Shown: positions 5,528-38,985 of the stretch, in pieces
How the letters are laid out: each line of letters begins with the position of its first letter
Numbering within the stretch: the stretch's first letter is position 1
Source of the DNA: Clostridia bacterium
GTDB lineage: Bacteria > Bacillota > Clostridia > Christensenellales > Borkfalkiaceae
Reading direction: 5' to 3'
Length of the DNA stretch: 57,963 bases
Assembly: GCA_017463105.1 (NCBI GenBank)
Contig: JAFTPU010000009.1
Coordinates: 1 to 57,963, forward strand
Notes under the pieces: model-generated
Told to the model about the DNA's origin: nothing
Seen by the model: the letters and a program-made list of their open reading frames with translations, nothing else
Databases searched by the model: none
Program-made: the position numbers and the translations under genes

Positions 5528-5597
5528 AAACACCGCCTTTGCGCGGTGTTTTTTGTATCCCGTTGCAAGGCGAGAAGCCACGGTTCGCGCGAGGAGC
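5511..5597 (+). repeat. tRNA-tail repeat, copy 1 (tRNA-Arg)
   Basis: An 87-base unit running from the last 17 bases of tRNA-Arg (CCCCAGCGGGTACACCA) through the terminator and a further ~40 bases ending CGCGAGGAGC. It recurs at 5644-5730 with one mismatch (A versus G after CGTTGCA). The 46 bases between the copies continue the unit with GCGACGACGC, a small CCGCATGCGG palindrome and ACGGCAAAA. Confidence 0.9.
5529..5555 (+). terminator. Terminator of tRNA-Arg
   Basis: ACACCGC (about 5530-5536) pairs with GCGGTGT around a CTTTGC-type loop and is followed by a run of T. The same terminator is repeated at about 5662-5688. Confidence 0.85.
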
Positions 5598-5643
5598 GAA
5601 GCGACGACGCTTTGCCGAGGCTCCGCATGCGGAAACGGCAAAA

Positions 5644-5730
5644 CCCCAGCGGGTACACCAAAACACCGCCTTTGCGCGGTGTTTTTTGTATCCCGTTGCA
5701 GGGCGAGAAGCCACGGTTCGCGCGAGGAGC
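5644..5730 (+). repeat. tRNA-tail repeat, copy 2
   Basis: Second 87-base copy, 133 bases after the first. It carries the tRNA-Arg 3' end including CCA and the terminator but no tRNA body. It runs into unrelated sequence at 5731. Confidence 0.9.
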
Positions 5731-6171
5731 TCGCTATCCGATGTAGCCGCGGGATCTAACAAAAAACCTCCGCTTTAATTGCAAAGTGAAAGTTTTTACT
5801 ATATATTCTATATTAATAATGTATTGCCGAAGAATTGTACGATCGATGAGATCGAACGAACTCAACGCGAGATTGCTTCGGGGAGGCGTTCTTTGATTCG
5901 GTTGTTTTTCTTTTATTGCGGCGAGCGAGGGAAAACGGTTGCTCTTGATCGCATTTTCTTTTTCAATTCGTCACGGTTAAGAATTTACATAGGGGAAAAG
6001 AGTGCTTATCGACGAGCTCTCTTTTTGATTTGAAATACGTATGTTTTGATTTGTTTTTTAATAGCGTAAAAACGATCTTCATGCTATAATAATAAGAAAA
6101 TAATAATCTTTGTTTCGATTTTACAAAAAATTTGAAATCAACAAACGGTAAAAAAAATTTGGAGGATAAAA
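5731..6171. other. Gene-free stretch with one candidate promoter
   Basis: No gene is supported here. The stretch follows repeat copy 2. A frame around 5779-6033 has no ribosome-binding site and only a TTG start, so it is not called. The right end contains the likely promoter at 6062-6090 and the ribosome-binding site of the next gene. Confidence 0.6.
6062..6090 (+). promoter_or_regulatory. Candidate promoter of the isomerase/oxidoreductase pair
   Basis: TATAAT (6085-6090) with TAGCGT at the -35 position (6062-6067) and a 17-base spacer. The poor -35 suggests activator dependence. The promoter at 8287-8315 has the same design (TAGTGT, 17 bases, TAAAAT) with related flanks. Confidence 0.5.
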
Positions 6172-7005
6172 ATGAAGATAGGCGTAATTTTGGAAAGCTT
6201 CAAAAAGGATTTTTTCATCTCGCTCAAAGAGGCGAAAAAGGTGGGCGCAAACGGTATACAGGCGTATGCGGGCTCGGCGTTTTCCTTTGACGCGACGAGC
6301 GCGGAATTGGAGGAAATGAAATCCATCGTCAACGGCGAGGGACTCGTTTTTTCGGCGATTTGCGGGGATTTTGGCAACGCGATGTATTACGAACAGGACA
6401 GAAAGCTTATCGACAGAGAAAAACGTATCCTTGAAATGGCGAAAGTGCTCGGCACGAACATCGTTACGACGCATATCGGCGTCGTGCCCGAAACGGAGAA
6501 TTGCGTGCAATACGAAAGTATGTACAAGGTCTGTAAGGAGCTTGCGGATTTCGCAAAGAGTATCGACGGACATTTTGCCGTGGAAACAGGTCCCGAAAAA
6601 GCCGTGGTATTGAAAAAATTTCTCGATAATCTCGGCAGCGACGGCGTAGCGGTCAATCTCGATCCCGCAAATCTCGTTATGTGTGCGGGCGACGACCCCG
6701 TGCAAGCCGTTTATACCCTTAAAGATTATATCGTGCATACGCACGCCAAAGACGGCGTTCAACTTAAAAAATTCGACACGAAAGCGCTCTATGCGTCCAA
6801 ATATTACGGCGTTGAATTTTGCGGGTGGAGCGTGATCGAAGAACGCCCGCTCGGCAAAGGGGACGTGGACTGGAAAAATTATCTCAAAGCGCTCGGCGAA
6901 ATCGGTTATAAAGGCTATTTGACGATTGAAAGAGAATGTGGCGACGACCCTTGCAAGGATATCGGCGACGCGGTGAAATTCTTGGACGCTTTTAACGTGA
7001 GGTAA
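6172..7005 (+). CDS. Sugar phosphate isomerase/epimerase (TIM barrel)
   Basis: A 277-residue protein of the xylose-isomerase-like/AP-endonuclease-2 TIM-barrel superfamily, cytoplasmic metal-dependent enzymes that isomerise or epimerise sugars. Visible marks are [13 protein letters not shown] with the metal-site His, FAVETGPE with the second-strand Glu, [22 protein letters not shown] with the His-Lys-Asp cluster, LGKGDVDW and a final [13 protein letters not shown] precedes the ATG. It is followed after 4 bases by an oxidoreductase, a pairing typical of inositol- or keto-sugar routes. The real substrate is not shown. Confidence 0.88.
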
Positions 7006-7009
7006 AAAA

Positions 7010-8074
7010 ATGAAAAAATTGAAAATTGCGGTGATCGGCGTGGGCGGAATTTCCGAACAGCATATTCAAGGCTATTTACATAACGAAAACACGGAAGTTT
7101 ACGCGCTTTGCGACATAAACGCCGAGCTGCTTGCGAAAAAAGGCGAAAAATACGGCGTAACCCGCCTTTATACGGACGAAGCGACGATGCTCAAGGAACT
7201 TCCCGAAATCGACGCGGTGAGCGTTTGTACGTGGAATTGCGCGCACGCGCCCTGTTCGATTATGGCGTTGAACGCGGGAAAAGACGTGCTTTGCGAAAAA
7301 CCGATGGCGATGAACGCAAAAGAGGCGGAAGAAATGATCGCGGCGGCGAAACGGAACGGAAAGAAGCTCATGGTCGGGTTCGTAAGGCGTTTTGGGAACG
7401 ACGCGGCGATCGTGAAAGACTTTGTGGATAACGGTTCGCTTGGCGAAATTTATTACGCGAAGGCGTCCTATTTAAGACGGAACGGCAATCCCGGCGGCTG
7501 GTTTGGCGACAAAAAGCGTTCGGGCGGCGGTCCTTTGATCGATTTGGGCGTACACGTTATCGATCTCACCCGTTATTTGATGGGCAATCCCAAGCCCGTG
7601 TCCGTGTATGGCGCGACGTTCACCGTGCTCGGTAATCGGAAAGGGATAAAAGACAAAGTTGCGTCGCATACGTCCGCGGGAAAAACGGACGACGATATTT
7701 GCGACGTCGAGGACATGGCTACGGCGTTCGTGCGTTACGACAACGGCGCGGTGCTGTCCGTAGAGGCGAGTTTTAGCTTAAATATCAAGTCGGAAGTGGG
7801 GACGATCGAGCTTTTCGGCACGAACGGCGGCGTGAAGCTCGATCCCGAATTTGAGCTGTACACGCAAATCAACGGCTATCTTGCCGACGTGAATTTGAAT
7901 ATGCCCACGAGCCTTTCCTTTAACGGACTTTTCCAAAACGAAATCGACTATTTCGTAAACGCCGTCTTGACGGATAAGGACGTGTCGGATATCGCCGAGG
8001 ACGGCTTGACGTTGATGAAAATTCTCGACGCGATTTACGAATCTGCCGAAACGTGCAAAGAAGTGGTGTTATAA
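7010..8074 (+). CDS. Gfo/Idh/MocA-family oxidoreductase
   Basis: A 354-residue NAD(P)-dependent sugar dehydrogenase-type protein. The N-terminal Rossmann fold starts IAVIGVGGISEQH, the family's CEKPMAM motif lies near residue 100, and the C-terminal beta-sheet domain has the catalytic-type segment GGPLIDLGVHVIDLTRYL with the conserved Asp and His. It is almost certainly co-transcribed with the isomerase just upstream and ends at a strong terminator. It would oxidise or reduce a sugar, sugar acid or inositol; family members differ widely in substrate. Confidence 0.9.
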   Translation: MKKLKIAVIGVGGISEQHIQGYLHNENTEVYALCDINAELLAKKGEKYGVTRLYTDEATMLKELPEIDAVSVCTWNCAHAPCSIMALNAGKDVLCEKPMAMNAKEAEEMIAAAKRNGKKLMVGFVRRFGNDAAIVKDFVDNGSLGEIYYAKASYLRRNGNPGGWFGDKKRSGGGPLIDLGVHVIDLTRYLMGNPKPVSVYGATFTVLGNRKGIKDKVASHTSAGKTDDDICDVEDMATAFVRYDNGAVLSVEASFSLNIKSEVGTIELFGTNGGVKLDPEFELYTQINGYLADVNLNMPTSLSFNGLFQNEIDYFVNAVLTDKDVSDIAEDGLTLMKILDAIYESAETCKEVVL

Positions 8075-8096
8075 AATAAAACTTGTGGAAATAACG

Positions 8097-38206: not shown

Positions 38207-38226
38207 TCGTTAAGAAGAGGGGAAAG

Positions 38227-38739
38227 ATGAAAGCAGAAAACAGGAGGAAGGAGATCGCGCAGTATCTTCTTTCCGAGCAGAAGCCCGTTTCGGGGGCGGA
38301 GTTATCCGCGAAATTTCACGTTTCGCGACAGATCATCGTGCAGGATATCGCCGTGATGAAGGCGGCGGGGTGCGATATAGTGTCCACGCATTACGGCTAC
38401 GTAATGCAGAAATCGCCCTTTGCGGAACGGGTGTTCAAGGTGCGGCATACCTCTAAGGAGACGGAGGACGAGCTGTCTCTGATCGTGTCGCTCGGCGGTA
38501 CGGTCGTGGACGTGCACGTTTGGCATAAGGTGTACGGGAAGATCGAAGCGAGACTGAACATTTCCTCGGCGTCGCACGTAAAGAAGTTTATGGAGGGCGT
38601 GCGGAGCGGAAAATCGTCCGAGCTTATGCACGTGACGGACGGGTATCATTATCATACCGTTCGAGCGGATAACGAAGAAACGCTGAACGGGATCGAAAGC
38701 GCGTTGCGCGGAAAAAATTATCTCGCCGCCGGCGAATGA
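38227..38739 (+). CDS. niaR: NiaR-type NAD-biosynthesis repressor
   Basis: A 170-residue regulator. The N-terminal ~60 residues are a winged helix (VSGAELSAKFHVSRQIIVQDIAVM), the C-terminal part is a 3H domain with histidines in VDVHVWHKVYG and DGYHYHTVRA, which bind metal and nicotinic acid in known members (YrxA/NiaR). It is the last gene of the nad operon and likely represses it when niacin is available, probably through the TTGACAGA repeat at 35098-35117. AGAGGGG precedes the ATG. Confidence 0.93.
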   Translation: MKAENRRKEIAQYLLSEQKPVSGAELSAKFHVSRQIIVQDIAVMKAAGCDIVSTHYGYVMQKSPFAERVFKVRHTSKETEDELSLIVSLGGTVVDVHVWHKVYGKIEARLNISSASHVKKFMEGVRSGKSSELMHVTDGYHYHTVRADNEETLNGIESALRGKNYLAAGE

Positions 38740-38774
38740 TCGGAAATAAAAAAAGCGCACCGTCAATAATATCA

Positions 38775-38806
38775 CCTCCAAAGTTTGTCTAACTTTTGGG
38801 GGGCAT
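38775..38806 (-). mobile_element. IS-end-like relic
   Basis: On the minus strand the stretch reads CCCCCCAAAAGTTAGACA followed by AACTTTGGAGGTGATATT. The CCCCAAAAGTTAGACA style resembles inner terminal inverted repeats of IS3-family (IS150-group) elements, with the ribosome-binding site of a transposase gene after it. No transposase frame follows, so at most an end survives. The same bases also form a hairpin that could end the niaR message. Confidence 0.35.
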
Positions 38807-38809
38807 AGC

Positions 38810-38856
38810 AAAAAACACCCGCAAAGGGGTGCTTTTTTCATGGTGGAGACAAAGGG
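38810..38856 (-). repeat. tRNA-tail repeat, detached copy (tRNA-Val)
   Basis: A 47-base copy identical to 38986-39032: the last 16 bases of tRNA-Val(CAC), including CCA, plus its terminator hairpin (CACCC/GGGGTG). It has no tRNA body and lies 176 bases from the intact gene. Confidence 0.9.
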
Positions 38857-38985
38857 TATCTGCCACGCAAGGCGGCAGGGCGTCGTCGCTCGCTGACCGT
38901 AGTGGATTTTCTAAGCCTTTCGTTTCTCGCTCCTCGCGTGAACCCCTGATAATACAGGACTTCCGCGAAACTCTTTTCCACCATA
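38857..38985 (-). repeat. Spacer of the tRNA-tail repeat
   Basis: The 129 bases between the two tRNA-Val tail copies. Read on the minus strand they contain GGTTCACGCGAGGAGCGA and GCGACGACGC, both also present (GGTTCGCGCGAGGAGCGA, GCGACGACGC) in the tRNA-Arg repeat at 5.58-5.61 kb. No gene is supported. Confidence 0.7.

Follow-up and report, generated by a model that had tools for sequence, protein, structure and literature searches.

The 57,963-nucleotide (nt) contig JAFTPU010000009.1 of the Clostridia bacterium assembly GCA_017463105.1, hereafter the window (contig C6 of the 1.29-Mb assembly of genome G000, 80% complete), carries behind two of its tRNA genes short repeat units that hold no gene and share a common core. 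We propose, at a probability of about 0.6, that these units are modular, gene-less, hairpin-built inserts that enter the 3′ end of tRNA genes and restore the tRNA tail and terminator. A first-pass annotation of the sequence had raised the possibility of a single tRNA-bound element; our comparison with related genomes supports tRNA-bound units, of which we distinguish families A and B, and replaces the single element by at least three families or modules, the third of which, module C, lies mostly away from tRNA genes.

Units behind two tRNA genes

At both loci, tRNA-Arg(CCG) and tRNA-Val(CAC), the tRNA gene is intact and its tail and terminator are duplicated within a direct repeat, which spans 87 bp at Arg (5511-5597 / 5644-5730, 99% identical) and 47 bp at Val (38986-39032 / 38810-38856, 100%). 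On the tRNA strand, both spacers contain GGTTC(G/A)CGCGAGGAGCGA (GGTTCRCGCGAGGAGCGA), then GCGACGACGC, then TT or CC, and then TGCC. The shared core that had been noticed in the two repeats was recovered as exact motifs, and CGCGAGGAGCGA occurs at four places in the 1.29-Mb assembly, all of them behind a tRNA, compared with none in the reversed control. The common order of the motifs also holds; their layout had to be corrected, as the gap between the two core motifs is 1 nt at Arg and 37 nt at Val, and the start of the Arg core belongs to the repeated block, because GGTTCGCGCGAGGAGC is present in the second repeat copy too (5715-5730). A third locus of the core lies at tRNA-Ser(CGA) on contig C12, where CGCGAGGAGCGA is present twice and the tail and terminator are repeated too, while GCGACGACGC, taken by itself, is found 17 times in the genome, three of them within such loci. 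With three mismatches allowed, the 5′ motif has four places in the window, a number reached by 9 of 100 shuffles, and the 3′ motif has ten, reached by 2 of 100; the loosened motifs are near chance in the window, and the weight therefore rests on the exact matches. As the first-pass annotation had assumed, the element has no gene of its own: none fits in units whose periods are 133 and 176 bp, too short for an integrase gene, and the open reading frames (ORFs) crossing them (4236..5762 and 38302..38841, both on the minus strand) are mechanical only. The features of the two loci are as follows.

5451..5527, +: tRNA-Arg(CCG), intact, CCA encoded (ARAGORN)
5511..5527, +: tail copy 1 of tRNA-Arg(CCG), namely T-stem 3′ strand, acceptor 3′ strand and CCA (start of the direct repeat)
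5528..5554, +: terminator 1 of the Arg unit, hairpin and T run (read from the sequence)
5555..5581, +: partial inverted copy of the tRNA-Arg T-arm and tail (read from the sequence)
5582..5599, +: Arg unit, family A core, 5′ motif GGTTCGCGCGAGGAGCGA (motif searches)
5601..5610, +: Arg unit, family A core, 3′ motif GCGACGACGC (motif searches)
5611..5642, +: Arg unit, 3′ hairpin TTTGCCG...CGGCAAA (read from the sequence)
5644..5660, +: tail copy 2 of tRNA-Arg(CCG) (direct repeat)
5661..5730, +: second terminator and a truncated second unit with GGTTCGCGCGAGGAGC at its end (5715-5730; the repeat runs to 5730)
39017..39094, −: tRNA-Val(CAC), intact (ARAGORN)
38986..39032, −: Val unit, tail copy 1 and terminator 1 (direct repeat, 100%)
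38927..38944, −: Val unit, family A core, 5′ motif GGTTCACGCGAGGAGCGA, with a TATTAT-loop hairpin ahead whose 3′ arm copies the T-stem (motif searches, row L002)
38890..38926, −: Val unit, variable spacer of 37 nt, long A type (read from the sequence)
38880..38889, −: Val unit, family A core, 3′ motif GCGACGACGC (motif searches)
38860..38878, −: Val unit, 3′ hairpin CTGCCGCCTTGCGTGGCAG (read from the sequence)
38810..38856, −: Val unit, tail copy 2 and terminator 2 (direct repeat)
4239..5321, −: gene beside tRNA-Arg(CCG), which we take to be mnmA-like, the neighbour used to locate the orthologous site (sequence matches in the genus)

The order of a unit on the tRNA strand is the tail (T-stem 3′ strand, acceptor 3′ strand and CCA), the terminator, an inverted copy, the core, a last hairpin and the second tail, which often has a terminator of its own. 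The inverted copy comprises the tail and the T-arm, with variable completeness; at one place, read twice (L036 and L102), it reproduces 15 nt of the tRNA-Val tail exactly, in a direct-inverted-direct layout. Tandem arrays of units were also seen, with truncated last units. In family A, the T-stem 5′ strand is copied ahead of TTC at 3.85 of 5 bases, compared with 2.70 when the tRNAs are swapped, and perfectly in 19 of 34 cases (the family A inverted-tail means include row L038, for which the script set the T-stem at the wrong place); of the two families, B has the stronger inverted tail. Locus L324 has, on the reverse strand at about 10.5-10.6 kb, a minimal unit of hybrid make-up that measures about 50 nt and consists of an inverted tail, GAGGGGCGGAGGCGACGC, the hairpin TTGTTGC..GCAACAA and a tail.

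Families A and B in related genomes

Twenty of 57 same-genus genomes contain the family A 18-mer, at 35 places in all, compared with none in the reversed control. As the first reading had anticipated, these matches cluster behind tRNAs: 28 of the 34 distinct places have a tRNA on the same strand no more than 600 nt upstream (20 of them no more than 150 nt), three are contig starts and three stand behind a 3′ fragment of tRNA-Pro. A scan of 84,980 species, many of whose Clostridia records belong to genomes of the 57-genome set, returned 66 stretches, half of them labelled Clostridia. By hand count, a tRNA lies within 600 nt upstream in 26 of the 33 Clostridia-labelled stretches and in none of the 33 others, and the remaining seven Clostridia-labelled stretches are at contig or stretch edges or bear tRNA tails. 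Among the tRNA types concerned are Arg-CCG, Ser (four anticodons), Val, Pro, Ala, Glu, Lys and Tyr. The second A motif, where it was detected in the Clostridia stretches, begins 19-20 or 52-57 nt past the start of the first. In the genome of the window, tRNA-Ser(GCT) (C13:94440 region, L135) has behind it the variant ACGAGTTCACGCGAACGGC, which is A-like and is accompanied by a partial copy of the tail.

Family B, recognised while reading the loci, has the same layout as A and ends in GCGCGCCGCNAAAGGCGC ahead of the tail. Its pattern was found at 69 places in 34 of the 57 genomes, against 6 in the reversed control. Once a contig-edge repeat was dropped, 46 of the 68 distinct places had a tRNA within 700 nt upstream, at 145-170 nt in 43 of these, and the other 22 comprised, by eye, 14 behind a tRNA 3′ fragment and eight that were not. 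The closing arms of 66 units pair with their own tail at 10.1 of 12 positions and at 6.2 of 12 when swapped between units of different tRNAs, showing that the arms match the local tRNA. The core behaves differently: its identity is 0.725 between units at the same tRNA in different genomes (n=57), 0.717 between units at different tRNAs of the same genome (n=17) and 0.692 when neither is shared (n=829), so that core and arms are uncoupled, the core hardly sorting by tRNA. The idea that cores follow tRNA type is hardly borne out by these identities, and near-consensus B copies (judged on middle columns that include part of one stem) are found at Leu, Ser, Gly, Pro and Val tRNAs. The earlier proposal that the core moves between tRNA genes while the tail is taken from each target is supported here for the arms and the core of family B; the movement itself is probable at most.

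The consensus fold of 56 B units has 37 pairs, 26 of them with changes on both sides, and two long B examples have a low folding energy (z -4.0 and -6.9). GT pairs make up 0.93% of the inner stems (13 of 1,400 cells) and 3.87% of the closing arms, compared with 8.96% in the acceptor and T stems of the 119 distinct tRNAs from all fetched loci. This near-absence of GT in the inner stems favours pairing at the DNA level over pairing as RNA, although it is not proof. Ahead of hairpin a, GAGGGT(G)GGAG is conserved, which may be akin to the feet of repetitive extragenic palindromic (REP) sequences. A covariance model of B, run on 396 genomes of the order, matched 23, of which 22 belong to several genera of the window's own family (34 such genomes shown) and one, with a weaker match, lies outside it. 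Of 25 B units taken across genera, 15 have a called tRNA 36-57 nt upstream, which their arms follow by eye, and the other ten follow, also by eye, a tail-like sequence ending in CCA; the last hairpin is changed on both sides in L328 and L346.

Several further observations concern B loci. The genome of the window has a B unit behind tRNA-Gly(CCC) (C10:378-520) and a B fragment (C5:2497-2626) in which coding-like sequence takes the place of the 5′ part. Many host tRNAs of B units have a wobble C (Gly-CCC, Ser-CGA, Thr-CGT, Val-CAC, Leu-CAG, Leu-CAA and others), in a raw tally. Directly behind the B unit of L160 (1368-1440, minus strand) is a match of 46.6 bits (cut-off 50) to the Gut-1 RNA (RF01706); we rejected Gut-1 as part of the unit, as it is a separate repeat that looks like a hairpin array linked by TGAAAT. 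At L321 (about 13.5-16.2 kb), an ORF of 747 aa, labelled N-6 methylase-like by eye, lies between tRNA-Pro and a B unit; CTTACGGGATTTGAACTCCCCGAAA, a sequence similar to the T-arm of a tRNA, bounds it in inverted copies. The inserts beside the B units of L177 and L179 each carry a similar 61-aa ORF and end with repeated GTTAAAATTATGGG-like and GAACCCATT-like motifs; they look transposon-bounded, yet hold different larger genes.

The orthologous tRNA-Arg(CCG) site

The mnmA-like gene matched at E<=0.001 in 50 of the 57 genomes, with 49 near full-length rows in 46 genomes (81-100% identity), and was used to read 50 stretches of the orthologous site, including one place read twice (G015) and two places in each of three genomes. 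Of these stretches, 42 hold tRNA-Arg(CCG): 15 with an A pattern, three with B, four with C (from three genomes, one place being counted twice) and 20 with no pattern. Allowing three mismatches within 700 nt, we found a second tail in 15 of the 22 stretches bearing a pattern (A 9/15, B 3/3, C 3/4) and in 2 of the 20 without one, both of which (L292 and L317) are A-like by eye. In two empty stretches the terminator marked by CGACAAG begins 6-8 nt after the tRNA, whereas in three filled ones it begins 6-7 nt beyond the second tail. From this difference in position, the original Arg tail appears to have been displaced rightward, the unit supplying a new tail and terminator as the left-hand copy, which supports, at this site, the suggestion that insertion restores both. 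Four stretches (L278, L297, L302 and L312), from several species, show another repeat after the tRNA-Arg terminator, built of hairpins joined by TATGNAATC-like links.

Proposed mode of insertion and alternative explanations

In the model that we prefer, insertion would occur at the border between the T-loop and the T-stem 3′ strand, where the tRNA gene would be cut and then made whole by the copy that the unit carries. The unit would bring, in this order, a new tail with its terminator, a partly inverted copy of the tail or the T-arm, an A or B core to which C is joined in some cases, and the last hairpin; the displaced original tail and terminator would then follow it. The units would move as DNA, probably as a single strand in folded form, given that the inner stems are almost purely Watson-Crick, and a trans-acting recombinase would carry this out; either Xer or an enzyme outside the searched families might serve the elements, or present movement might be rare. 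The matching of arms to each tRNA could come from transfer between like tRNAs of different species, with cores exchanged by recombination, or from rewriting by gene conversion or template switching. A bolder version, which we put forward only tentatively, is a self-customising mobile hairpin that would enter via a folded single strand and acquire direct and inverted copies of its target's tail, so that one core might serve almost any tRNA, with a core recombinase of the host or another enzyme at work.

A number of results weigh against insertion by mobile units. No copy was caught moving, in a genome set that has no near-identical strain pair. The first-pass annotation had suggested that a tyrosine recombinase encoded elsewhere might share the distribution of the elements, and none follows them; more broadly, no searched enzyme family tracks the elements, whether tyrosine recombinases or Y1/RAYT (57 genomes) or serine recombinases or IS110 (14 genomes). 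The tyrosine recombinase domain PF00589 is present in 39 of the 57 genomes, the Y1 transposase PF01797 in 21 of 57 and the IS110-type DEDD transposase PF01548 in 4 of 14, one of them below cut-off, and PF01797 had no match in the element bearers G000, G006 and G045 (completeness 80, 96 and 82%). G006, with six B model matches and one A place, gave no match to PF00239, PF01548 or PF01797 and has one tyrosine recombinase; this enzyme looks like the chromosomal Xer, because it is widely kept (75-88% identical in 16 of the 24 other genomes compared) and its best match, below cut-off, is XerS. One A and two B patterns had no exact match in viral_contigs, and one B unit had no match when compared with phages and plasmids. 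Within family A, the hairpin ahead of TTC agrees at 2.76/5, against 2.28/5 when swapped, and the longest exact inverted-tail stretch averages 6.38 nt, a modest excess over 4.89 nt (34 cases each). At the Arg site, 6 of the 15 A stretches have no second tail, and CGACAAG also stands behind tRNA-Gln in the genome of the window, so that this motif does not mark the site uniquely, which weakens the restoration argument. Compared in pairs, the B cores have a mean identity of 0.708, above the star expectation of 0.645, so that a clean burst from a single master does not account for them.

Module C also counts against a purely tRNA-bound system, as it is mostly scattered: its pattern has 22 places in 11 of the 57 genomes, three of them with a tRNA within 700 nt, about nine tRNA-linked by eye and 13 elsewhere, some of the latter with complementary arms of their own, again by eye. 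C is joined to B in the long B forms (L161, L177 and L213), and L378 and L364 are B/C mosaics. Such a distribution, together with the mosaics, indicates that these genomes have a general hairpin repeat, which makes up part of the machinery and of which the tRNA-bound units are one form.

These results have to be set against explanations that do without mobile units. It is possible, though rather unlikely in our judgement, that the repeats arose locally, by tandem duplication and by template switching at the tRNA-terminator palindrome, and that ectopic recombination and gene conversion spread the cores. The direct-inverted-direct layout of L036, the tandem arrays with truncated last units, the B/C mosaics and the lack in G006 of a dedicated recombinase of the four families searched would all suit such a process, as would two apparent recombinants between tRNAs, seen by eye and open to assembly error, L103 (Ser on the left, Glu tail) and L161 (Leu on the left, Ser on the right). 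However, a tRNA site that is empty in some genomes and holds different families in others would then require the gain or loss of whole cores, and the near-consensus B copies at five tRNA types speak against this origin as well. An improbable alternative is that the units are resident structured RNAs or trailers with a part in tRNA maturation or in termination, which selection maintains and some species have lost. The near-fixed spacing of B (43 of the 46 places with a tRNA) and its structure, conserved across genera with compensatory changes, would also suit such a resident element, and arms complementary to the tRNA tail and the low folding energies of the two long B examples point the same way; the rarity of GT pairs in the inner stems relative to tRNA stems, the swapping or absence of A, B and C at one site and the copies behind tRNA 3′ fragments do not. 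A search of Rfam 15 with the A, B and long B units examined (12 loci and L161) likewise gave no family for them, only tRNA being above cut-off.

We disfavour, as very improbable, the view that the units are scars, that is, remnants of the attachment sites of ordinary integrase islands. Such islands do occur at tRNA-Ser genes of the genus, and at L324 a B unit lies directly beyond one. The two islands for which both tails were read (L324 and L325) nevertheless duplicate a longer stretch, from the anticodon arm on, whereas the mini-units duplicate only from the T-stem 3′ strand to CCA, so that the attachment segment, judged from these two islands, is not the same; in a third island (L322) the far tail was not found. 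Conserved hairpin cores would, moreover, be unexpected in the scars of unrelated islands. The gene inserts found between tails had also raised an integron-like system, an idea that was dropped: those of L092, L179, L186, L095 and L075 carry genes that, as labelled by eye, have nothing in common, and some resemble ordinary islands or inserts bounded by insertion sequences. A reading in which the tail would serve as a guide RNA was considered as well.

The proposed insertion of gene-less units at tRNA 3′ ends recalls several known systems. Like tRNA-targeting integrative elements, the units show a tRNA 3′ end duplicated at the far side of an intact tRNA; unlike them, they have neither a gene nor a linked integrase, and one core occurs at many tRNA types. 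REP sequences, bacterial interspersed mosaic elements (BIMEs) and REPINs, which are associated with RAYT, are likewise short, modular, strictly paired, mosaic and gene-less hairpins, but the arms of the units follow the adjacent tRNA and bearers such as G000, G006 and G045 lack a Y1 transposase match. Miniature inverted-repeat transposable elements (MITEs) are also short and gene-less, with many related copies, and differ in that the terminal arms of the units are not a fixed family sequence but follow each target tRNA. Integron cassettes with attC share folded sites, a free middle sequence and arrays, while the units are anchored at tRNAs and contain no gene. No element of this kind was described in the titles or abstract openings that our searches of an open-licence library returned.

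Genes for tRNA are classic landing sites of mobile DNA, normally with one integrase per site. Here, in an uncultured gut group of Clostridia, one small, gene-less core is found at many tRNA types, its tRNA part fitted to each. If the units do move, they would offer a simple natural system for how an element changes its landing site, and they would add a class of inserts that annotation misses, as they have no gene and no known RNA family was matched here.

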